Below are positions 5,852 to 19,063 of a stretch of DNA of 20,234 nucleotides, one piece after another. The translations under genes were made by a program, and so were the position numbers. The stretch comes from a virus, in the IMG/VR virus record IMGVR_UViG_3300007345_000400, positions 1 through 20,234 of that record; one strand, written 5' to 3'. Position 1 is the stretch's first letter. Each line of letters opens with the position of its first letter. The notes beneath the pieces are model-generated. The model made no database searches. It worked only from the letters and a program-made list of their open reading frames with translations, and was not told the DNA's origin.

Positions 5852-8800
5852 ATGGCCTCAAAACCTCAATTTGGCGCTGATTTTTTAGATTTCGCTTATG
5901 GCACACCCAGACAGCCTAGCGCCGGGGGATTTAGTAATCAGTTTCTGGATTTCGCTTACGGGCCTCAGCAGGAGGAGGAGCGAGGGTTTTTTGTAAATGC
6001 GCTAGTGAGCGCTGGCGAGCGCGGTAGCGAAATAGCCAGTAACTTTGTGCAGGGGCTAGGCACGATTGCAAAAGCCGGCGAGAACTTCTTGGCGGATACA
6101 ACAGGCATCAACCCGTACATCAAGTTTGGCGAAGATGGCATTTCGTTTGATCTGTACGCCAAGCCAGAAGAGACGGGAAACCTCCTGGGCACATTGGGCG
6201 AGTCGATCGAGCAAGACTTTGGTGCTACAGCAAACCGCCGATTCACCTGGGAAAACTTTAAGGGTGCTGATGGTGAGGTTTCGATTGATGACTTCTTCAA
6301 TTTTAAGGAGTTGGCTGGCTACATCCTAGAGTCTGGGATTCATTCTGCGCCGGATATGGGTGCGGCTATCCTGGCTTTTCCTGCGTATATTTTTTCTTTG
6401 GTTCAAGAGCTTGGTGAAGAGCGAGCTCGGAATAAGGGCTTCACAGAAACCAGCATAAGAGAGCTTGCTGAAGCTGCTCCAGCCGCAATAGCCACCGCTG
6501 CACTGGAGCGCCTGGGTGCGAGAGGAATTTTAGATACTGCCGGGCAGGGCTTCGGCAAGGGTCTACTGAAAGGCGCAACCAAAGAAGCAGGCACTGAATT
6601 CCTGCAAGAGCAAGCCCAGTACGCTGGTGAGGTGGTTGGGACGCCGGTTGGTTTTGACCTAAGCACCAGTCTGGACAGAGGTATCGCTGGCGCGGTGGCT
6701 GGTGGCGGTATTGGCGCGGCTGGTGGCGCAGTATCCGGGACGTTGCGATCAGCTCCGTATGATCCGTTCGCCGGCAAGGAGCCCGGCCAGGTTCTTCAAG
6801 AGCTGCAAGATCGCGTTGCCGCATTGAACGCCAGAGTAGAGGAGGGCCTTACTCCGGGTTACTCCCTCGAAGAGCAGAGAGCCGCGATTGAGGCGGATGC
6901 TCGTCAAGCCAGTATTGCCTTCCCAGACTTCACGTTTGACCTGGGTGCTATTCTCGACCCCATCTCAGTCGCCGCTAGAGCAGGCCAGGCTGAAGCTAGA
7001 GCTCAGGGTGGGGATGGGTTAGACCAGGCTACTAACGCGGCCGCACGGGCCTCTCAAGCCGCCTCACAGGCCCGCACGATAGAGACACCCACCACTCAAG
7101 CTGTCATTGAGACAGACTCCCCTCAGATCGCTGACACTTTCGAGCAGCAAGTCCAGGAAACCGAAGCCCGCCGGCAAGAGCAAATGGCTGCGCTTACTCC
7201 CGGTGTGGATTTGATTGCAGCCCTCCGGGCCAGTCTCAACAAGGCCATCATTACCGCAAGACGCGAGCAGAGAGCCCTGGGCGATAGCGACCAACAGCAA
7301 ACCCAAGAGCTCGAGGATGACATCTCCCGCTTGCAGTTTGGTCTGACCAGGCTTCAAGAAGCTCAGCGGTATGCTTCAGAGGACAACTCTGCTGCCATCC
7401 CCGCGATTCTCAATCAAGTAAGAGACATCGCAGCGCGTCCGATTTTGTCCCCAGAGTTTGGTCGCCGTCAGTCGTTTGACTATGTAAACGTACTTGAAGG
7501 CGAGCTGATGCCGCGCATGGACGAAACCATCGAGCTGTATCGGCAGACCGGGGTAATGCCCAGGACAGAGCGGCCCGCCTTGCGAGCTCCGGCAGACTTT
7601 GAAGTGGATCCTGCCGGCGAGACGAGAAGGCCGCGCTCCACTACTCAGCAAGCTGATATTCCAGACATACGAGCTCGGGATAATCTGATTGAAGATCAGA
7701 ACATTATCTATGGAGATCAGCCGGCACCTGAACCAGCTCCTCGGCCAACGATGGATTTCGCTGTTGATCGAGAAGGCAATGTTGCTGGGACACCTAATGA
7801 GGTAGCGGCACGGCGAGGCGTTCCCACGACTCCGATGCTAGAGGTGGATGTCGAGGATCGACCCAGTACGCAGATTCTCCGCAAAGCTAGCGGTGAGCCT
7901 TATCCGACCAGGCAATCTGCATCCGCTGCACTGACTCGCGTGAAGCGCGAAAACCTGGATTACAACTGGGATGTTATCGAGGACGGTGCTGGATTTGCTC
8001 TTCAAGGTAGATTGCCAGAAGGCTTGCCGCCGAGAGAGGTGGATATCCAGTCTATCCGGGAGACTATGCGCCCTGGCGCTGGCGTGATCGATGAGCAGGG
8101 TCGCGGTCTGAGCAGGGAAGAGCAGGCATTGCGAGCGGCCCAAGACGCAGAGGCTGAGATCCCGGCTAGAGATAATGTGGTTCAGATCCCGGTTGATTAC
8201 CGTCCGGCAGACGCGCCCAGAGGCGAGGCAGAGATCGAAGCAGAGATTGCGGCAATCGACAAGGAACTGCGGGCTATCAATCGCGGCACTACCCGCGGGG
8301 GCTATAACGCAGATACTGACCTATTCAGCGCAATTAAAATGATGGGCGGGATTAAGACGTCAGATGCCCGTAGCGAAGATTTCAGTGTGAGCGGGCAAGG
8401 CGTTCCGAGCGGGCTGTTCAAGGCGAACGGAAAGACGTTCGATGAGCTTACAGAGCTCATGCAAGAAGCAGGCTACCTGGTAAGAAGCGGTGATTCCTAT
8501 GACGCCCAGGTTGGAGATGCAAACCGCACTATCGACATTATCCGTGATGCCATTTTTCAATGGCAAGAAAACAAGGATTTAACTTTCCTCGAGGCCGGCC
8601 AGCCAGGAAGAAAGTCGCAAGAGCGTGATGGGTTGCGTAACCGGCGTGATGCCCTAATGGAAGAGCTGCGGTCTGCGGAGACGTTTGATGACTCTCCAAT
8701 ACCGGATATAAGTCCACCGGACACACAAGCTGAGATCGACACTGAGACGGAGCCACAAGGCTCCGTTTCTCGTTCTGGGCCCGATATTTCGCAAATTGCT

Positions 8801-11800
8801 GGCGATGTTGTTGAGAGCAACCGAGCTGAGAGAAGAGCGAGATTGGACGCCGCAGTAGCCCGGGCGAACGAATTAGCGCCACCGGATGATCCTAATAAAT
8901 ACGACTTTAATTACCGGCCCATGCGAGCCCAGGATCTGAAGTACCTGGCAGGCGGAAGCTACACGGTTGACGAAGCGCAACGGATCACCGAGGAAGGCAC
9001 TCGTACTCCTACGCCCGCTTACAGCCGAGTCATACGCACAGCTCGAACAGAGAATCCAGAGGCTATTGGGATTATAGAGTCGCTACCTGACGCATCGATT
9101 GCACGGTACTTCGATGACGCTGAGCCCCAGTTTGAGGTGTTCACAGGCTACTACGGAGACGATAACAAGAACTTCAGCCAGAAGGTGCATGAGCGAAGAG
9201 CGCTGACGGCTCTCATCACTCGCCACCGTGAGCGCACAGGGCAGATGCAGGCCCAAAGCAACTTCATGGATGAGGGGCGAGACACCCTCACCACATACAC
9301 GGAAGAAGAGCTGCGTGAGCGCGCAGAGACAGATACAGGCGCGGCGGAGCAGAGAGCTCAGATCGATCGGGAGCGGGAACTGTTTGACCTGGATCCCGGC
9401 GAAGGCTCGATCTCCGGCGCGGCAGATCCAACGCAGACCGACAGAACCCAAGGCTCGCTATTTTCTGTCGGTGCAGAGGAAAGGCGCGCTCGGGCAACAG
9501 ACGAGCTCCGTAATGTGCGGGACAGGATGCGAGAGCGCCGTGAAAGATTTATGGCGAGGAGCGATCGTACCGCAGAAGGTATGCGTCAATTTGAAGCCAG
9601 CGAACGTCGCCTGGCTGAAGCGTTTGAATCCTCTCCCCGGCGTGAGCTAAGAGACATCCGAGATAGGATGCGGGCTGGTCGCGATCAGTATATGGAGAGA
9701 AGTGACCGCACCGCAGACCGGATGCGTGATTTCCAATCCAGTGAGCGCGAGCTGGCTGACACATTTGGCATAGATTCTCCTCCAAGAGAGCTGGTTTCTG
9801 AGCAGCAGATCAATGCGACGATCGACCGCATTGTTGGTGACAACCAGGCGGCTCGAAACAACATCATCGTGGTTCGTCGGTTCGATGATCTGCCGCAGAA
9901 CGTGCAGGACGATGCCAGGAACCAGGGCCTCAACAATGTTGCCGCCGCAGTCAATCAGGGCAAGGTATACATAGTCCGTAACCGGATGGTTGATGAGGCT
10001 CATGTGGAGCGAGCCATCCTGCACGAAGCCACGCACGTTGGCGCTGCCAAGATGTATGCGGATGAGGGCGTCGAAAAGGCGCTCAACCGTATGTTTGTGG
10101 CGATGGGCGGCAAAAAAGGTTTCAACAAGATCGTTGCCGACCTGGGCCTCGAGGACAGGATCGCTCCCTACCGGGACGGCCTTGAGCAGAGCAACTACTC
10201 AGGCGAGGTGCGTAACCGCATCCTAGTCGAAGAAGTCCTGGCAAATGTGGGCGAGCAGGGATCCAAGACCTTCAAGCTCAGAGTCCAGGAGGCGATCGGT
10301 GCTATCCGTGAATGGCTCCGCAGAAACGGCTTTGCCACGCTTGCCGACCTGGGCGTGACCGATATTGTCTATGCCGCTAAGCAGGCGCGCACGGCGTTCT
10401 CTGAGGCTCTGGGTGCGGCAACGGACACCGACTCGCGCTTCTCAGATATGCAGGAGGGGCGCAGAGCACCGCGAGATGAATTCAATTTCTACTCCGGCAT
10501 TGAAGAGATCCTGCTGACCCAGGGCGACAAGATATTCAAGGCGTCCAAGAGAAACCCGGACGCATTAGTGCGCGGCGATCAAATCCTGTCCTTCTTGAAG
10601 TCACAGGGCATGAAGCCTGATGAGGCGCGGTTCTCCAGGATCGAGCAGTTCTTGGAGCCAGAGACGCGCTATAGCCGTCAGCAGATCCTCGACTATATGG
10701 AGATGAAGGGCCGACCCCGGTACACGGAATACCAGGCAGTCGCTGAGTATGATCTGGATGAAGATAGCCTGCTCAATCTCGGAACGGTAACAAACGAAAA
10801 ACTGTTTTCTGTGAGAGTGATCGTTGACGAAGATTTGATTAACAACTACGTCGATGAGGCCATGAGTGGTGACGAGGATTATCTGATTGAGACTGCCGCA
10901 CAAAATTTAATACAGAAATTTGGCAGCGACTCTGAGGACGGGCAGGCGTTAGACGCATTGCTGAACGTGCCCACCGAAATAGATGGCGAGCCGGTGTCAT
11001 ACATGGCGCAGTCTGAGGCTCGTGGTCAGCTAATCAGCGAGCTGTCGCCAGATTTAACTGAAAAGCTGAGAGCCGAAGTCGAGAGCCTGGCGCGGATGCA
11101 GGAGGCTCAAAGCCCATACCAGGTTTACTCGATTTCTGAGGACGTCAAGCAGGCAGTCAAAGAGGCCGGCCAGCAAACCGAAGATGATATGGCCTCATTG
11201 GCGTCTATCAAAATCTCAGGCAACGAAGATTACGGCTGGACAATTACCGCAAGCGCCATGCGCGGCCAGTACTCTGACCGGGAATTTACAGAAGTTCTTA
11301 ACGTCAATGAATCAGAGCTGAGTGAGGCTTTTATGCGCGCTCGCGACTTCATATATGGCGACGAGCTGATGATGGAGGCACGAGAAAAAGGCAGCGCTAA
11401 ATTCCGTGAGTATTTTGATGATGACCTGGACGGTGAAACAAACTGGTCTGAGTACCGAGAGTTCACCCTCGAGATAGAAAACAACGCCTGGGGCCAGTAC
11501 GCGGGCAGTCATTTTGACGTCAACACTGTCTATGACGTTATCACCACGGATCGTTCCTTCGACCGCCCGGCAGCGCATGAGGATTCTCTCCGCATCAATA
11601 CGCTGATGTTGGATGGCCCCGGCACTACAAACGAATACCTCGAGGGCAAAGCGCTGTTCGTAGAAGAGGCTCAGTCAGATTGGAGCTCTGCGGTTCGGAA
11701 ACAGGGATTAGATATATCCCGCTTAGATCCTGACTTCGATGAGCGGGTAGCTGGGTTCCAGGAAGATTTGGAGTCTGCCAATTTAGACCGCCAGATCATC

Positions 11801-14800
11801 AACAATGAGCTCGAGCAAATTAGGATTCGGATTGCCTCGTTCGATGATTACAAGAACGGTGAACGCACAGATTTCGGGCTCCTGGGCACAACACCCAGGC
11901 AGACTGTCATGGAGGAAAATGGCTACGCATCTGACAGGGCTGTGTCGATGGATGCCTATCAGTTGGCGCTTTTGATTTCTGAGCTAGACCCCATCCTGAC
12001 GCAACGCGGCAAATCAGCTTTGTATAGGCTGACTCAGACATCCATTAAAAACCAGGAAGGCCGGCAAACAAAAACTCTGGATCGACTTATCAGAGATGAT
12101 GAGCACGGTGGCCTGCCTCGCGTAAGAAAAATGATCCGTGAAAAACTCCGCACGATGTTTGAGGACGGCAACTCAATCAACTTTGCGCCAGGCATATCCG
12201 GGCCAGAAAACCTTAACCGCCGGATGGACATTTTCGAGAAATACGACTTGCCTATTGGCAATTCGCTGTCAATTCTGCGCTATGGCCCACTCAAGCAGAG
12301 AGTGCTTGGTTATACGCCGGAGCAGGCTTCCGCATCGTTTAACTCTGCGAATCCTACACGGCCACCTAGCAACCCAGAGCGCGCTGCTTACACGCCCCGC
12401 CAGGATGAGTTAGCTAACGCGCTCTTTGAATATGGTCGGCTGCTTGATGAGGCGACTGAAAACGAAAAGCGAGTTGAGGACGCGCAAGAGCGAGTTGATT
12501 CGACTGCAAATCGCATGACTTCAGAGCGCATCGCGGCTAGACCTCCGCTGCCTGGAGATAAGTACATCCGACTGGCGGCGCAAAGGGCCTTCGCAACTGC
12601 GGCTGAAGAGGCCAAAGATTACCTGGTGGTTACCAGCTCAAACCGTCCAGGATTGCGGTGGGGTAGAGACTACACGGCAATCTATGACCAGAAGTGGCGC
12701 AAAGAGCTCGAGAAGGTTGCCGGCGCTAAAGCCGTTCCAGTGACGATACGCGGCAAGGTTGCGGATAAAGAGCTGGCAGTCATAGATCAAGCTATGGCCG
12801 CTCTGCAAATAAAGAAGGTAGAGAAAGCAGCCTACATGGAGGAGGACGGCTTTGAAGCCCGCATGGGCGGCATCAATGAATGGAGAGTCGACGTCGAGTA
12901 CCCCAACATCGAGCTTGGACTCAATGCCGATAAGCTGCCTCGGAATGGTGTGCAGGACGGCATACCGACCAGAATGAGCGGCTCAATTCGTGTATTAGGC
13001 ACTCGCGGAGTCGAGAACAGGCAGGATGCGATCAAGCAGGCCAAAATCGAGCTCCGCAACAGGCTTATGAATGAAATGGCCGTGGCCGGATGGGCTGTGC
13101 CGATCACTGAGCAGGCAGTCGAGAAACAGCGATCTGAAGGTATCTCCCTGTTCTTGAATGAGCCTAGCCAGTTCCAGAAAGAGAACGAGCGCATCCGCGA
13201 GAAGGATGTCACCCTGGTAGAGAGGGTGAAGAGAAAAGCCAGGCGTGAGCTCGCCCCTGGCGGTCTGCTGCCTAAAGCCGTATTCGACGAGAAGATCACC
13301 CGCGACAATCAACTAGCGTCCGTCGAATTCGATACGGTTTATTACGTCAAGCAGCTCGAGAAGGCAGTCAAGAGCACGATGGGCGGAAGCCTCGAGTCGC
13401 TGCCGGCGGATCAGCAAGCCAGGCTGAATGAGTCCCTGGCGGGCAGGCTGGATGACTCACTGCCGCAGCCGGTCAAAGAAGCCATCATCGGCATGAGAGA
13501 GAGCATTGATGGGCTGTCTAAGCAGTACATCAAGATTCTCGACCGCCAGGCAGGGGAGCTCCTAGCGACGTTCTCAGGGCCCCAGAGAGAGCTCCTGGAC
13601 GCCTATATGAGAGCGTCTGAGGTAGACAATAAGCGCGAAGCTAATGCCATTCTCGACCAGGCAAAAGCGCAGTTCCAAGAGTCTGCTGCGGCAGAGGGAA
13701 TGAGCACTGATTTGCGCCAGCCAATCAACGATATTCAGAAAGCAATATCTCAGCTCAGTCTGCTTAACGTCATTCGCTCCAACACCGGCAAGTATGTAAA
13801 CCGATCGTACCGGGCGTTCGATGACGCTAACTGGTTCGAGAATGTGCCGGATAACGTGCTGAATGACGCCAGGAGATATCTGAGCAGTCGGATGGAAGAG
13901 TCCGGCATGGATTCTGATCGCATTGCTGAGCGCGTTGAAGTGGTGCTGAATGACATTCTCAAGGAGGGCACTGCCTACGGATCGATGGAGTCCTTCATCA
14001 AGGAGTCCAAGCTGGGTGCTAAAGACTTGTCGATCTTGCAGAAGCGGAAAGACATAGCGCCTGAGATTCGTGCGCTCCTGGGTGAGTACCAGGATCCCCG
14101 GGTCAACTACGCCAAGACCACAACCAAGATGGCGCGGCTGATTCATAACACCCGGTTCTTGGATAAGGTGAAAGAGATCGGGATGGGTAACTTCTTATTC
14201 ACGGAAGATAACCGGCCACCCAATACCACCAGGATCGCAGTAGAAGGCAACAAGTCCCTAGAGCCGCTGAACGGCTTGTATGCACCTCGAGATGTAGCCC
14301 AGGCATTTTCCGATGTCGGCAAGGTGCGAGACTTCATTGGGATGCCGGAGGCGATCATTCGTCTGAACGGTGGCATTAAGTTCGGCAAGACCGTCCTGGC
14401 ACCGACCACGCAGTTCAGAAACTTCATGTCTGCTGCCTTCTTCGCTATGGCGAACGGTCACTGGGATCTGACAAAGACGCAGAAATCGCTCTCGGTTATG
14501 CGCGAATACTTCACCCGTGATGGTAACGCCGGGAAGCTCGCGTATCTAAGAAGGCTGAAAGAGCTCGGCGTGGTTTATGACACACCCTTTGCCGGCGAGA
14601 TGATGCGTCTGCTGGAAGAAACCAAGTTGTTCGATGGTGAGCGCGCAGAGATGGGTGCAGTCCAGGGCACAGTCAAAGACCTGGCAACGGTCGCGCAGCG
14701 GATGTACCAGTTCGGTGATGACTTCTGGAAGATCGTCGGCTACGAGAACGAAAAGGCGAACCTCTTGGGCACGGGCATGAGCGAAGCGGAGGCTGAAGTC

Positions 14801-15988
14801 GAGGCCGCAAACCGCATCCGCAATACCTATCCGACATATTCCCTGGTCGGTAATTTCGTGAACGCGCTGCGGAGATTCCCGCTCGCCGGCACGTTTGTTT
14901 CCTTCCCGGCTGAAATCATCCGCACTCAGTACAACATGATGAAGATCGCCGCGCAGGATATGCAGACTCCAGGCCGCAGGGCCCTGGGTGTCAAGCGGTT
15001 GACCGGGATGAGTATGGCTGCGGCTATGCCTTATGCCATTCAGTCCATCACTAAAGAGATGTTTGATGTCTCTGATGATGAGGAGGAGGCGATCCGTCTC
15101 ATGTCTCCGTACTGGATGGAAAACTCCAACTTCCTATTTATGGGACGAAACGACAAAGGGCAGCTCGAGTACCTGGACGTTTCTTTTATGGATCCGTACA
15201 ACTACTTCAAGCGTCCGATCAACGCGGTTCTGCGTGACCAGCCCTGGGAAGAAGAGTTTATTTCTGCGGCGAAGGACATGGTTCGACCATTTTTCGGATC
15301 GGACATTCTTGCCACAGCATTGTTTGAGGTGGCCAAAAACGAGAAGGCAACTGGTGGGGCAATCTACAACGATAGCGACACTGCCGCACAGCAAGCTGCG
15401 GATATGGCTGCTCATGTTTCTAAGGCAGTGGAACCAGGGATCATTGGTAACGCCCGGAGAATCTATAAGGCTGTAGAGGCCCCGGTCACTCCATACGGGA
15501 AGGTCTACACCCTCGAGGACGAGGCGGCTGCTTTCTTTGGATTCCGCACCACCACATTCGATCCCAAGACTGCGTTGCGATTCCGCTCGATAGATATCAA
15601 GGAGCGCCGCAATGAAGCCAGCGCGCAACTTAAAGCTGTGCTGAGGGATCCAAACCTAGCTGGAGAAGAAGGTATACGGGAGGCTGTTGAACGCTCCCTG
15701 GCGATGCGACAAAGGACATTCGACGAGGCGCTGCGGCTGATTTCCGCATCCAGGTCTGCAGGGCTTAGCGACTTGCAGATTATGGAAACGCTCAAAGCTG
15801 CCAATTTTGGGAAGCTCGACATGGGTTACCTCATGCAAGGCCAGGTTCCACCGATGATGCTAAGCGCTGCATCTGTCAGGAATGAGTACCTGGGCGCTCT
15901 CAGGGTTCTTGGCCCGGAGAAAGCGCAACAAATCCTCGAGAGGTATGGAATCGCCTCTAACATTCTTTCCGAACAATTCGAGCAGTAA
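5852..15988 (+). CDS. Giant polyvalent virion protein (zincin metallopeptidase, split VEEAQSDW module, LPD38-like C-terminus)
   Basis: This 3378-residue protein is read from ATG 5852, with AGAGG 12 bases upstream. Order of parts: duplicated FLDFAYG (11-17, 31-37); a hydrophobic stretch (about 153-188) and a Gly-rich segment (about 275-300); linkers; a small GEPYPTRQSA... unit (about 678-715); a helical FSAIKMMGGI...FDELTELMQEAGYL unit (about 826-870); a tandem 47-residue repeat (1218-1312); a zincin-like domain with H1391-E-A-T-H1395 and downstream E1460/E1461; a GMKPDEA...QQILDYM unit (about 1546-1630); a YRE...HFD...VEEAQSDW unit (about 1870-1945), continued only after about 285 residues at PLPGDKYIRLAAQRAF (about 2230); a helical NRSYRAFDD...EYQDPRVNYAKT region (about 2580-2770); and an LPD38-like C-terminal region. 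Such proteins belong to the polyvalent class of phages and conjugative elements and are thought to enter the cell with the DNA. It takes the place of the T7 gp16 ejection protein. No lysozyme or transglycosylase motif was seen. Confidence 0.8.
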   Translation: MASKPQFGADFLDFAYGTPRQPSAGGFSNQFLDFAYGPQQEEERGFFVNALVSAGERGSEIASNFVQGLGTIAKAGENFLADTTGINPYIKFGEDGISFDLYAKPEETGNLLGTLGESIEQDFGATANRRFTWENFKGADGEVSIDDFFNFKELAGYILESGIHSAPDMGAAILAFPAYIFSLVQELGEERARNKGFTETSIRELAEAAPAAIATAALERLGARGILDTAGQGFGKGLLKGATKEAGTEFLQEQAQYAGEVVGTPVGFDLSTSLDRGIAGAVAGGGIGAAGGAVSGTLRSAPYDPFAGKEPGQVLQELQDRVAALNARVEEGLTPGYSLEEQRAAIEADARQASIAFPDFTFDLGAILDPISVAARAGQAEARAQGGDGLDQATNAAARASQAASQARTIETPTTQAVIETDSPQIADTFEQQVQETEARRQEQMAALTPGVDLIAALRASLNKAIITARREQRALGDSDQQQTQELEDDISRLQFGLTRLQEAQRYASEDNSAAIPAILNQVRDIAARPILSPEFGRRQSFDYVNVLEGELMPRMDETIELYRQTGVMPRTERPALRAPADFEVDPAGETRRPRSTTQQADIPDIRARDNLIEDQNIIYGDQPAPEPAPRPTMDFAVDREGNVAGTPNEVAARRGVPTTPMLEVDVEDRPSTQILRKASGEPYPTRQSASAALTRVKRENLDYNWDVIEDGAGFALQGRLPEGLPPREVDIQSIRETMRPGAGVIDEQGRGLSREEQALRAAQDAEAEIPARDNVVQIPVDYRPADAPRGEAEIEAEIAAIDKELRAINRGTTRGGYNADTDLFSAIKMMGGIKTSDARSEDFSVSGQGVPSGLFKANGKTFDELTELMQEAGYLVRSGDSYDAQVGDANRTIDIIRDAIFQWQENKDLTFLEAGQPGRKSQERDGLRNRRDALMEELRSAETFDDSPIPDISPPDTQAEIDTETEPQGSVSRSGPDISQIAGDVVESNRAERRARLDAAVARANELAPPDDPNKYDFNYRPMRAQDLKYLAGGSYTVDEAQRITEEGTRTPTPAYSRVIRTARTENPEAIGIIESLPDASIARYFDDAEPQFEVFTGYYGDDNKNFSQKVHERRALTALITRHRERTGQMQAQSNFMDEGRDTLTTYTEEELRERAETDTGAAEQRAQIDRERELFDLDPGEGSISGAADPTQTDRTQGSLFSVGAEERRARATDELRNVRDRMRERRERFMARSDRTAEGMRQFEASERRLAEAFESSPRRELRDIRDRMRAGRDQYMERSDRTADRMRDFQSSERELADTFGIDSPPRELVSEQQINATIDRIVGDNQAARNNIIVVRRFDDLPQNVQDDARNQGLNNVAAAVNQGKVYIVRNRMVDEAHVERAILHEATHVGAAKMYADEGVEKALNRMFVAMGGKKGFNKIVADLGLEDRIAPYRDGLEQSNYSGEVRNRILVEEVLANVGEQGSKTFKLRVQEAIGAIREWLRRNGFATLADLGVTDIVYAAKQARTAFSEALGAATDTDSRFSDMQEGRRAPRDEFNFYSGIEEILLTQGDKIFKASKRNPDALVRGDQILSFLKSQGMKPDEARFSRIEQFLEPETRYSRQQILDYMEMKGRPRYTEYQAVAEYDLDEDSLLNLGTVTNEKLFSVRVIVDEDLINNYVDEAMSGDEDYLIETAAQNLIQKFGSDSEDGQALDALLNVPTEIDGEPVSYMAQSEARGQLISELSPDLTEKLRAEVESLARMQEAQSPYQVYSISEDVKQAVKEAGQQTEDDMASLASIKISGNEDYGWTITASAMRGQYSDREFTEVLNVNESELSEAFMRARDFIYGDELMMEAREKGSAKFREYFDDDLDGETNWSEYREFTLEIENNAWGQYAGSHFDVNTVYDVITTDRSFDRPAAHEDSLRINTLMLDGPGTTNEYLEGKALFVEEAQSDWSSAVRKQGLDISRLDPDFDERVAGFQEDLESANLDRQIINNELEQIRIRIASFDDYKNGERTDFGLLGTTPRQTVMEENGYASDRAVSMDAYQLALLISELDPILTQRGKSALYRLTQTSIKNQEGRQTKTLDRLIRDDEHGGLPRVRKMIREKLRTMFEDGNSINFAPGISGPENLNRRMDIFEKYDLPIGNSLSILRYGPLKQRVLGYTPEQASASFNSANPTRPPSNPERAAYTPRQDELANALFEYGRLLDEATENEKRVEDAQERVDSTANRMTSERIAARPPLPGDKYIRLAAQRAFATAAEEAKDYLVVTSSNRPGLRWGRDYTAIYDQKWRKELEKVAGAKAVPVTIRGKVADKELAVIDQAMAALQIKKVEKAAYMEEDGFEARMGGINEWRVDVEYPNIELGLNADKLPRNGVQDGIPTRMSGSIRVLGTRGVENRQDAIKQAKIELRNRLMNEMAVAGWAVPITEQAVEKQRSEGISLFLNEPSQFQKENERIREKDVTLVERVKRKARRELAPGGLLPKAVFDEKITRDNQLASVEFDTVYYVKQLEKAVKSTMGGSLESLPADQQARLNESLAGRLDDSLPQPVKEAIIGMRESIDGLSKQYIKILDRQAGELLATFSGPQRELLDAYMRASEVDNKREANAILDQAKAQFQESAAAEGMSTDLRQPINDIQKAISQLSLLNVIRSNTGKYVNRSYRAFDDANWFENVPDNVLNDARRYLSSRMEESGMDSDRIAERVEVVLNDILKEGTAYGSMESFIKESKLGAKDLSILQKRKDIAPEIRALLGEYQDPRVNYAKTTTKMARLIHNTRFLDKVKEIGMGNFLFTEDNRPPNTTRIAVEGNKSLEPLNGLYAPRDVAQAFSDVGKVRDFIGMPEAIIRLNGGIKFGKTVLAPTTQFRNFMSAAFFAMANGHWDLTKTQKSLSVMREYFTRDGNAGKLAYLRRLKELGVVYDTPFAGEMMRLLEETKLFDGERAEMGAVQGTVKDLATVAQRMYQFGDDFWKIVGYENEKANLLGTGMSEAEAEVEAANRIRNTYPTYSLVGNFVNALRRFPLAGTFVSFPAEIIRTQYNMMKIAAQDMQTPGRRALGVKRLTGMSMAAAMPYAIQSITKEMFDVSDDEEEAIRLMSPYWMENSNFLFMGRNDKGQLEYLDVSFMDPYNYFKRPINAVLRDQPWEEEFISAAKDMVRPFFGSDILATALFEVAKNEKATGGAIYNDSDTAAQQAADMAAHVSKAVEPGIIGNARRIYKAVEAPVTPYGKVYTLEDEAAAFFGFRTTTFDPKTALRFRSIDIKERRNEASAQLKAVLRDPNLAGEEGIREAVERSLAMRQRTFDEALRLISASRSAGLSDLQIMETLKAANFGKLDMGYLMQGQVPPMMLSAASVRNEYLGALRVLGPEKAQQILERYGIASNILSEQFEQ
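9503..9787 (+). repeat. Tandem 47-codon duplication inside the giant gene
   Basis: Residues 1218-1264 and 1265-1312 of the giant protein align without gaps over their first 41 positions, with 25 identities. Shared landmarks are ELRxxRDRMR, SDRTA, MRxF and SERxLA. The DNA copies differ at many third positions, so the duplication is not recent. Both copies are highly charged helices and lie directly in front of the metallopeptidase domain. Confidence 0.8.
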
Positions 15989-16931: not shown

Positions 16932-17058
16932 ATCCATCGGAAAGGAGTGCAAATCTAGGATGCTGCACCTTACAGAAGCAGAAGCCGGCTTGTTCTTCAT
17001 CGGCGCAGTTCTGTTCAATGTAATTCTGATCGCCCTCCTGGCCTTCGCAGCAGGCTGA
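16918..17058 (+). CDS. 46-residue single-span membrane protein
   Basis: The start chosen is ATG 16918, with CGAGG seven to eleven bases upstream. A longer frame from 16822 would mostly overlap the previous gene. The first 20 residues are basic and amphipathic (FIKSIGKECKSRMLHLTEA). Residues about 24-46 are a hydrophobic helix (GLFFIGAVLFNVILIALLAF). It overlaps the preceding gene by 14 bases and the following one as TGATG, so it sits in a coupled series. A small phage membrane protein could be holin-like or regulatory. Nothing in the sequence decides this, and there is no endolysin next to it. Confidence 0.6.
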   Translation: MTFIKSIGKECKSRMLHLTEAEAGLFFIGAVLFNVILIALLAFAAG

Positions 17059-17219
17059 TGCGGCACTGCTATATCTGCAACAAGGCGGGCGTACCGATCG
17101 AGGACGCCCTCTGTGGTGAGTGCAGAGCCACCAGAAAAAAGTGGTCGTTCGTTAGTTGGGCGACCAAAATATTTGGTTGCTCAATGGTTGGGCGACCAAA
17201 TTACGGTGTCAGGAAGTGA
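17058..17219 (+). CDS. 53-residue zinc-ribbon protein
   Basis: An ATG overlapping the previous stop (TGATG) opens a 53-codon frame ending at TGA 17217-17219. The protein begins MRHCYICNKAG and has two CxxC knuckles, C4/C7 and C19/C22, 11 residues apart, followed by a basic RKKW segment. Two CxxC pairs with this spacing predict a compact zinc ribbon that could bind nucleic acid or a protein partner. The C-terminal 24 residues are encoded by an array of palindromic 13-mers, so that part may be shaped by DNA-level constraints. It is the last rightward gene before attP. Family unknown. Confidence 0.6.
   Translation: MRHCYICNKAGVPIEDALCGECRATRKKWSFVSWATKIFGCSMVGRPNYGVRK
17140..17200. repeat. Four-site palindromic array with 16-bp period
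   Basis: TTGGGCGACCAAA occurs identically at 17156-17168 and 17188-17200. Between them, at 17172-17184, TTTGGTTGCTCAA is its inverted form with two mismatches. A degraded inverted copy (TGGTCG core) sits at 17140-17152. All four start exactly 16 bp apart with alternating orientation, as expected for cooperative binding of a dimeric DNA-binding protein such as an excisionase or repressor. The two identical copies are 32 bp apart and read in different frames of the zinc-ribbon gene, so their conservation is not explained by the protein. Confidence 0.7.
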
Positions 17220-17234
17220 CCCCAATGCTGACAC
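17206..17234 (+). terminator. Stem-loop at the end of the rightward block (weak terminator candidate)
   Basis: GTGTCAG at 17206-17212 pairs perfectly with CTGACAC at 17228-17234 around a 15-base loop, and the stop of the last rightward gene lies in the loop. The position suits a transcript end, but no T-run follows directly. The next T-run is about 20 bases downstream, inside the CCCGCCTTTT repeats. Confidence 0.3.
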
Positions 17235-17249
17235 TGCTGTAAGACCTTG

Positions 17250-17272
17250 CCCGCCTTTTTTGCCCGCCTTTT
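17250..17272. repeat. Left pair of CCCGCCTTTT repeats (candidate integrase arm sites)
   Basis: Two perfect direct copies at 17250-17259 and 17263-17272, spaced 13 bp. They are matched by a second pair in the same orientation on the other side of the core. Paired short direct repeats flanking a core are typical arm-type sites for the N-terminal domain of lambda-type integrases. The binding role is inferred. Confidence 0.6.
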
Positions 17273-17274
17273 AT

Positions 17275-17341
17275 ATCCTCGTACAGCTCTAACGAGCCTG
17301 TAATCGCCCTCCCGGGCCGCAGTTATAGGCTATACGAGGAT
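17275..17341. repeat. Imperfect long inverted repeat left of the core
   Basis: ATCCTCGTA (17275-17283) is the exact reverse complement of TACGAGGAT (17333-17341). Inside it, AGCCTGTAA and TTATAGGCT form a second near-complementary pair with one mismatch, around a CCCGGG-containing loop. The two stems are offset by an 11-base bulge on the left against one base on the right. It could be a folded transcript end or a protein-binding dyad; the sequence does not decide. Confidence 0.5.
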
Positions 17342-17358
17342 CTACGAAACTTTCCAAT

Positions 17359-17386
17359 ACGGGTTCGAGACCCGTCAGCCACCCCA
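17359..17386 (+). other. attP: attP core: 3' end of tRNA-His
   Basis: The bases read as the T-arm and 3' acceptor strand of a tRNA: stem ACGGG, loop TTCGAGA, stem CCCGT, acceptor strand CAGCCAC, discriminator C, then CCA at 17384-17386. C73 before CCA is specific to tRNA-His, and the acceptor strand differs from that of E. coli tRNA-His (TAGCCAC) by one base. Nothing upstream folds as the rest of a tRNA, so this is not a functional gene. It is the fragment that restores the host tRNA 3' end after integration. Crossover lies in or just 5' of this segment. Confidence 0.85.
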
Positions 17387-17395
17387 TTTTTATCC

Positions 17396-17417
17396 ATCGT
17401 AATCAATAAGTTACGAT
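17396..17417. promoter_or_regulatory. IHF-type site within a 7-bp inverted repeat
   Basis: AATCAATAAGTTA at 17401-17413 matches the IHF consensus WATCAANNNNTTR at every defined position. It begins 15 bases right of the tRNA CCA. The site is framed by ATCGTAA (17396-17402) and TTACGAT (17411-17417), a perfect 7-bp inverted repeat. IHF bends attP so that one integrase contacts core and arm sites. The placement between core and the right arm repeats fits that use. Confidence 0.6.
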
Positions 17418-17433
17418 CGGCCTCTTTATTTTA

Positions 17434-17454
17434 CCCGCCTTTTACCCGCCTTTT
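17434..17454. repeat. Right pair of CCCGCCTTTT repeats (candidate integrase arm sites)
   Basis: Two perfect copies at 17434-17443 and 17445-17454, each preceded by A and so forming an 11-bp tandem. They have the same sequence and orientation as the left pair at 17250-17272. The two pairs bracket the tRNA-His core asymmetrically, about 110 bp to the left and about 70 bp to the right, as P and P' arms commonly do. Confidence 0.6.
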
Positions 17455-17469
17455 GCCACATTTCTGCGT

Positions 17470-17501: not shown

Positions 17502-17661
17502 CATACTAGGTCTGGGGTAGTCCAGCGGTTTTCGTCGAAATCGCACCACCCATACTATTAGTGTGCAAAACTTAGGCGCAAAAACGCAATAACACAAATT
17601 AAAACAGTGGCTTACAGCGTTTTTTGGGGTTGTAAATTTTGGTCACGGGTTATTTTGAGCT

Positions 17662-17698
17662 CCGGGATTTCCGGGATTTCCGGAGGTTTCGGAGGTTT
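17662..17698. repeat. 9-bp tandem repeat block
   Basis: Four near-tandem 9-mers: CCGGGATTT twice (17662-17670, 17671-17679), then CCGGAGGTTT and CGGAGGTTT (17680-17698). The regular period creates a spurious open frame rich in Phe-Arg. It is probably a set of protein-binding sites or slippage-generated sequence within attP. Confidence 0.6.
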
Positions 17699-17885: not shown

Positions 17886-18914
17886 CTAGATGCTGTTGAG
17901 TAGGTTGACCTGATCTCGATCCTTCACACCTGAGATCCAGTCGGCGTAGGTGTTGAGAAACATCTCTGTGGTGTGACCGAGCTGCTTGGCCGCAAATGCG
18001 GGCTCGACCCCGGCCATGAGCATTTCAGATGCCCTGGTGTGCCGGCAGATGTAGGGGCGGCGGTAGGTCATCCGGCACTTCTTGAGCGTGGCAGTCCAGT
18101 CGGCCAGATATTTTTTCGTCTCCCGGCGTTGGTTGCCGTTCTGATCGAGGAAGATCGCACCCCCGGCAAATCGTCTAGGGTGGTTGGAGAGCAGGGTGAC
18201 CATTTCCTGATTGATAAACACTTGTCGCACTTTGTGGATCTTGGTGTCGGTGATCTCCCTGCGAACCATCGCGCGCTCGACCAGGATCGTATCCCCGGAT
18301 ATGTCCTCCCATCTCAGCGCCAGAATCTCCCCGGTTCTCATGCCTGTCTCGAACGCCAGTTTGTAAAACAGCCAGGAGTCACCCTCTAGCCTGCCTAAAA
18401 TTTTCGCCTTTTCTGAGGGCGTGAAACGCTGGATCGCGGGCTTCTGGTGGCGCTTGATGCTGACGGCATCCACCGGGTTCGATGAAATCAGCTCTTCCTC
18501 GAGGCCCAGCTTGAACACCAGGCGGAGAGGGATCAGAGCGTTCTTCTTGGTTTTCTGGGATACGTTGTGTGACGCCAGGATCTCTCTGATATGAGATGGC
18601 CGGATCGTATACACCGGCTTGGTGGCCAGTGTCGGCATCCAGTATTGGTTAAGGATCTGCTTGTAGCTGTACCCGGTCGAAGGCTTTACGTCAGTCTGAT
18701 CGAGGAACGCCTGAGCGAGATTGCCGAAGGGCAGGGTGGAGTCGTACCGGCGCTCTCCGTGGGTGAGCTGCCTTACCCATTCCTCCCGGGCGGCGATCGC
18801 TTTTCGTAGGCCAGCGTCAGAGTTGGCGTAGCGAAAGCTCTTGTAGTGCCGCTGCCCATGTATTGTGACCTGGCACTCCCACGCTCCTCGTCGCCATCGT
18901 AAGCCTTTAGCCAT
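17886..18914 (-). CDS. int: Tyrosine-family phage integrase
   Basis: This 342-residue protein catalyses site-specific recombination between attP and the host tRNA-His gene. The N-terminal arm-binding domain (about 1-55) opens MAKGLRWRRGAWECQVTIHG. The core-binding helical domain spans about 60-150 and the catalytic domain about 165-342. Catalytic residues visible: R193 (ETGMRTGEILALRW), K228 (HKVRQVFI), R291 in YICRHTRAS, H314 (LGHTTEMF) and the nucleophile Y323 (NTYADW). Position 288, usually His in HxxR, is Tyr, a substitution seen in other active phage integrases. The start at 18914 has AGGAG a few bases upstream and lies 142 bases inside the excisionase frame. The gene points at attP, as is usual for phages integrating in tRNA genes. 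Confidence 0.95.
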   Translation of the reverse strand: MAKGLRWRRGAWECQVTIHGQRHYKSFRYANSDAGLRKAIAAREEWVRQLTHGERRYDSTLPFGNLAQAFLDQTDVKPSTGYSYKQILNQYWMPTLATKPVYTIRPSHIREILASHNVSQKTKKNALIPLRLVFKLGLEEELISSNPVDAVSIKRHQKPAIQRFTPSEKAKILGRLEGDSWLFYKLAFETGMRTGEILALRWEDISGDTILVERAMVRREITDTKIHKVRQVFINQEMVTLLSNHPRRFAGGAIFLDQNGNQRRETKKYLADWTATLKKCRMTYRRPYICRHTRASEMLMAGVEPAFAAKQLGHTTEMFLNTYADWISGVKDRDQVNLLNSI

Positions 18915-19063
18915 GCAGTCAGCTCCTCTTGGTCAACGATCGTGGTTCTGCCCACAACATAGTAGTGCCTGCCTTTCGTCAGCTTGCGCTTCCAGTTTTT
19001 AAACGTAGTGCGCGGAATCCCAGTATCTTCACACCACTTGTCCAGTGCGATCAAGTTAGCCAT
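18773..19063 (-). CDS. Excisionase-like winged-HTH protein
   Basis: This 96-residue protein starts at ATG 19063, with AGGA about five bases upstream. A longer frame from 19165 would overlap the zinc-ribbon gene and is less likely. Residues 3-53 form a winged-helix unit: LDKWCEDTGIPRTTFKNWKR, then GRHYYVVGRTTIVDQEELTAWL, as in MerR-like or Cox/Xis excisionases that recognise attP and bias integrase toward excision. The adjacent int supports this. The DNA-binding unit ends where int begins. The last 45 residues are encoded in the overlap with int and look unstructured, so they may be incidental. It could also repress transcription, as P2 Cox does. Confidence 0.7.
   Translation of the reverse strand: MANLIALDKWCEDTGIPRTTFKNWKRKLTKGRHYYVVGRTTIVDQEELTAWLKAYDGDEERGSARSQYMGSGTTRAFATPTLTLAYEKRSPPGRNG

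Follow-up and report, generated by a model that had tools for sequence, protein, structure and literature searches.

REP and BIME elements are imperfect palindromes of 20-40 bp that occur in pairs of opposite orientation, form larger folds and lie mostly downstream of genes, occasionally inside them (PMC3733652); the sib element of phage lambda is located distal to int, beside the P arm of attP (PMC2951348, PMC5300877). An array of four 13-mers of alternating orientation, found at positions 17140-17200 of an IMG/VR virus record (20,234 bases were analysed, hereafter the window), is closest to the former in form and to lambda sib/tI in place. It shares imperfect palindromes, opposed pairs and a plausible RNA role with REP/BIME but differs from them by copy number, with at most three copies per phage contig and none in 140 genomes of the host family Halieaceae, and inspection of the flanks at its foot (AAAAAAG / AAATTACG, TTTTT / AAAATAAT etc.) found no unpaired GTAG or CGTC tag of the REP/BIME kind; the copy number, the missing tag and the absence from the 140 family genomes rule out a host-derived REP element. 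Like lambda sib/tI, it is a hairpin that adjoins attP at its P arm, distal to int; by comparison with them, its stable strand is that of the late genes and not that of int, its units are in tandem and it lies farther from int.

Two further classes share some traits with the array. Lambda Xis sites and RDF arrays are likewise repeated short sites near attP, whereas the array consists of inverted pairs with a separation of 32 bp, lies beyond the arm-type sites and is absent from one relative (L026) despite a close Xis. Intrinsic terminators also have a G+C-containing stem at an operon end; this identity was rejected as no U-tract follows the + strand stem (the tails read AAAUUACGG, AAAAUAAUC, AAAAUCC and AAAACUG) and the array is not among the predicted terminator sites. 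A literature search found no paper on this element, blastn against a phage collection returned no match and an Rfam search with the array gave no covariance-model match up to E 1. The array is a conserved cis element, apparently not described before, where the late genes meet attP in a group of uncultured marine phages; these phages are temperate and probably have Halieaceae/Luminiphilus as hosts.

Geometry of the array and its gene setting

The earlier note had described exact 16-bp spacing and alternating orientation. Both hold for the starts of the 13-mers, with exactly 16 bp between neighbours; the recognition cores (GGTYGYYC / GGGCGACC) are instead spaced at 15/17/15 bp with a period of 32 bp, because the A-B and C-D pairs each form one 27-nt inverted repeat. 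This 27-nt unit, present twice, is the true repeat. Elsewhere in the window, TTGGGCGACCAAA has no copy with fewer than three mismatches. The sites and the structures that they form are as follows:

Start 17140, minus orientation: site A, degenerate, its weak fit limited to GGTCG..C
Start 17156: site B, TTGGGCGACCAAA
Start 17172, minus orientation: site C, two mismatches
Start 17188: site D, identical to B (TTGGGCGACCAAA)
17141..17167, + strand: hairpin unit 1 (sites A and B), GTGGTCGTTCGTTAGTTGGGCGACCAA, 10 pairs including G-U in + RNA, 41.4 bits
17173..17199, + strand: hairpin unit 2 (sites C and D), TTGGTTGCTCAATGGTTGGGCGACCAA, 11 pairs including G-U in + RNA, 43.4 bits
17142..17198, + strand: alternative long nested hairpin (A pairs with D, B with C), the minimum free energy form

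To the left of the array lie late genes on the + strand, including an ORF of 3,378 codons (5852-15988, a single reading frame among the structural genes). To its right, attP is followed by three genes on the - strand, namely int, one for an excisionase-like protein, and ssb:

17058..17219, + strand: g53, an ORF of 53 aa with a conserved CxxC...CxxC N-terminal half and a non-conserved C-terminal tail read from the array
17204..17237, + strand: second hairpin, CGGTGTCAG...CTGACACTG (GTGTCAG ... CTGACAC), lying after the array and before the arm repeats; L043-L046 conserve both it and the array
17245..17273, + strand: left (P) arm-type repeats, 2 x (T)GCCCGCCTTTT
17330..17349, + strand: pair of 10-bp direct repeats on the left side of the core, CTATACGAGG / ATCTACGAAA, candidate Xis-type sites identified by eye
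17360..17386, + strand: attP core, equal to the 3' end of a tRNA-His gene, with the same core at the tRNA-His attL of L108/L115
17401..17413, + strand: IHF-like site in the P' arm, AATCAATAAGTTA
17429..17455, + strand: right (P') arm-type repeats, 2 x TTTTACCCGCCTTTT
17660..17694, + strand: terminator-like hairpin with T-rich tail between attP and int, the second strongest G+C-adjusted fold of the window
17850-17833, - strand: terminator-like sites
17886..18914, - strand: tyrosine integrase
18773..19063, - strand: excisionase-like protein, starting at MANLIALDKWC

The sequence at 17401..17413 fits the IHF consensus WATCAANNNNTTR. Luminiphilus/Halieaceae genomes have matching attL remnants at tRNA-Asp or tRNA-His, in which int stands on the P' side; this sets the orientation of attP and places the array on the P-arm side. 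The hairpin at 17660-17694 is built of CCGGGATTT repeats whose number differs among relatives. The arm-type repeats keep a 2+2 layout with wholly different sequence between phages (the window, L044, L009, L031 and L026), and in other phages the same array stands beside arm repeats of quite different sequence.

Distribution among relatives and relation to g53

The clade was collected by searches with a 158-aa protein, the integrase, g53 and Xis, and the array recurs in eight distinct IMG/VR relatives, each time beside a lambda-type attP and in a single orientation. Two units are present in the window and its near-identical contigs, L043/L042, L009/L008, L031 and L027, one unit in L044, L045 and L046, and a single decayed unit in L047; L026 has no array. 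In every carrier, the array follows the late genes at their 3' end with its orientation fixed; it directly abuts the left arm repeats in L009, L031, L027 and L047 and is no more than about 45 bp away from them in the other carriers. The repeats, their conservation and this constancy of orientation and position are direct observations. Strict and loose DNA pattern scans of all IMG/VR gave true matches restricted to this phage clade; the other matches were dismissed as chance, as they fall in coding DNA and have no matching flanks (L032/L204 and L198/L206 excepted). Two weak model matches on the coding strand of more distant phages, one just after ssb in L032 and one just before a gene start in L198, may or may not be homologous to the array; their place between genes or directly ahead of a start codon would suit an RNA role.

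Such a distribution could also be that of a non-functional or selfish palindromic repeat, spread by recombination among related phages and tolerated at the edge of attP. The copy number of zero to three, one-unit forms that resemble a collapse between repeats, a position that differs relative to genes, other mobile-looking palindromes adjoining the array and a third copy in L027, to the right of attP and antisense to the 3' region of int, would all suit an element of this kind. However, the B/D arm is nearly invariant though the arm-type sites and the integrases (about 70% identity) have diverged, pairing is preserved despite change, the orientation does not vary, the 140 host-family genomes have no copy and the copies of the clade occur only at the attP edge; we therefore regard the selfish repeat as quite improbable. 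Upstream of the array, L027 (reverse complement) and L047 carry, in opposite orientations, a segment of roughly 110 bp with inverted ends GCCAAACTGTCCAAACC ... GGTTTGGCAAGTTTTG, which looks like an invertible or mobile element.

The array of the window lies within g53, and the earlier note rightly pointed out that the two identical 13-mers fall in different codon frames, B and D being 32 bp apart within the ORF 17058-17219. The conserved part of g53 is limited to the half that contains CYxCNKxGVPIxxALCxxCR. Its tail is derived from the array in five phages and is different in L009, L026, L027, L047, L005 and L048; in the one-unit phages, g53 after the repeat is read in another frame because the unit measures 32 bp, and in L009 and L027 the array begins after the end of g53, outside the ORF. 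The location inside the last gene before attP, as first described, is thus correct as to the proximity of attP and applies as to the gene in one subgroup only. With a tail free to vary, a frame that shifts with unit number and, in L009 and L027, an array beyond the ORF, the overlap is incidental and specific to that subgroup, the array and not the peptide being what is conserved. This independence from g53 is directly established, and it illustrates that an ORF may contain an array conserved at the nucleic-acid level although the tail encoded there is not conserved. The comparison of relatives proposed in the earlier note does reveal a changing tail, together with a unit number of one or two; relatives that keep the peptide without the repeats, which it had taken as a refutation, keep the N-terminal half of g53 only, and this leaves the repeats unaffected.

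Folding and strand pattern of pairing

Folded as + strand RNA, the array reaches -35.2 kcal/mol (z -5.5, matched by 0 of 200 shuffles), and as - strand RNA -18.1 kcal/mol (z -2.1). When 69-nt stretches of the whole 20-kb window were ranked on both strands in steps of 3 bases, the array took the first G+C-adjusted rank of 13,444 (z -5.7), and its hairpin persists when 200-400 nt of context are folded with it. Each 27-nt unit is predicted to form a stem of 10-12 bp with a loop of 3-5 nt in + RNA, and the two units together could form one interrupted duplex of roughly 24 bp. The fold z-score, the G+C-adjusted rank and the recurrence in eight distinct relatives confirm that the array is real and well beyond chance.

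Across 14 distinct units, standard pairs occupy 89.9% of cells on the + strand and 78.0% on the - strand. The right arm GGGCGACC (the B/D half-site) hardly varies, and the left arm (A/C) changes almost only from C to T facing G, which yields G-U pairs in + RNA; a double change from CG to UA occurs once, in L047. U-G is the most frequent pair at two columns (9/14 and 8/14 units), so that the DNA palindrome is broken where an RNA stem stays intact. For the units listed, the + strand is more stable than the - strand in all except the two L009 units, where the strands tie. This strand bias is an observation in its own right, and a pattern of G-U-compatible change can help to tell an RNA stem from a DNA operator. 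Since the independent changes are few and related (about four columns of the G-U type versus one or two of the opposite type) and a covariation test over the array units did not exceed shuffles, the departures from the palindrome favour a hairpin in + strand late mRNA over an operator or Xis array only modestly.

That alternative would make the array a DNA operator or accessory array at the attP edge, where a dimeric protein (a phage regulator, Xis or a host architectural protein) binds inverted pairs with B/D as strong and A/C as weak half-sites. The nearly invariant B/D and variable A/C half-sites would suit it, as would the adjoining left arm repeats, the L027 copies on both sides of attP and the fact that translation of g53 would leave a DNA function undisturbed. 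Against it, the A/C variation is almost confined to C-to-T opposite G, L026 lacks the array although its Int is 70% identical and its Xis 59% identical (an Xis/RDF array being expected wherever its cognate Xis acts), further operator-like copies are missing elsewhere in the phage contigs and the other direct repeats beside the core fit an Xis role better. Co-occurrence with Xis, which pattern matches first suggested as a sign of Xis binding, was abandoned once tblastn found a close Xis in L026 as well as in L047. We consider a protein-binding array of this type unlikely. The earlier reading as an operator or recombination-factor array is accordingly not favoured over an RNA hairpin, given the G-U bias on the late strand, the Int and Xis of L026 without an array and the other attP repeats that already fit the arm- and Xis-type roles; its argument that DNA binding, and not protein sequence, preserves the sites survives as a nucleic-acid constraint, borne out by the variable tail, the frame shift and L009/L027, while the same G-U bias speaks modestly against DNA binding.

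The late transcript and the attP junction

The array may be an RNA hairpin element specific to the clade and located in the 3' portion of the late (structural-gene) transcript, after the last late gene and before attP, a reading that we hold at slightly under an even chance, the modest weight of the few, related changes and of the covariation test being the reason for this reserve. Late transcription would run through the array, and late RNA could cover it because the terminator-like + strand hairpin at 17660-17694 comes only downstream of attP. The stem would then act post-transcriptionally, as a barrier to 3' exonucleases or as a processing site for a double-strand RNase, so as to trim and stabilise late mRNA before read-on through attP towards the convergent int. 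Against this RNA hairpin stand the ribosomes on g53, which would cross the stem in the window and in L043-L046, the lack of an array in L026, the third copy of L027 on the far side of attP and the missing U-tract after the + strand stem.

The minus strand offers a different RNA element, in which the array would belong to the int transcript as a lambda tI/sib-like terminator or RNase III site past attP, limiting int until integration separates the array from int. Its geometry is that of lambda (distal to int, beside the P arm of attP), six to seven T come after the - strand stem in the window group and the two strands fold nearly equally in L009. However, A-C mismatches break the - strand stem in most units, L009, L031, L027 and L047 have no T-run after it, and about 690 bp separate the array from the int stop, - strand terminator-like sites being already present at 17850-17833; an int-strand element is very improbable. 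Lambda sib itself was rejected on the weaker - strand of all but the L009 units (a tie) and on the pairing figures of the two strands.

Returning to the late-mRNA hairpin, one elaboration has only the slenderest chance, namely that late transcription, in crossing towards attP on phage DNA that is unintegrated or has been excised, reads the array as a phage-specific RNA element, through which a dedicated phage protein or RNase links late expression to the state of attP; this would mirror lambda retroregulation, with the late transcript in place of the int transcript as its target.

Near locus position 4001 of L106, L108 and L115, Halieaceae and other marine MAGs carry C-terminal int fragments (residues about 289-342) together with a P' arm. 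These fragments are located at tRNA-Asp or tRNA-His and are broken almost alike near TGTGCCGGCA, a similarity that may be biased by a search pattern needing residues 291-298.
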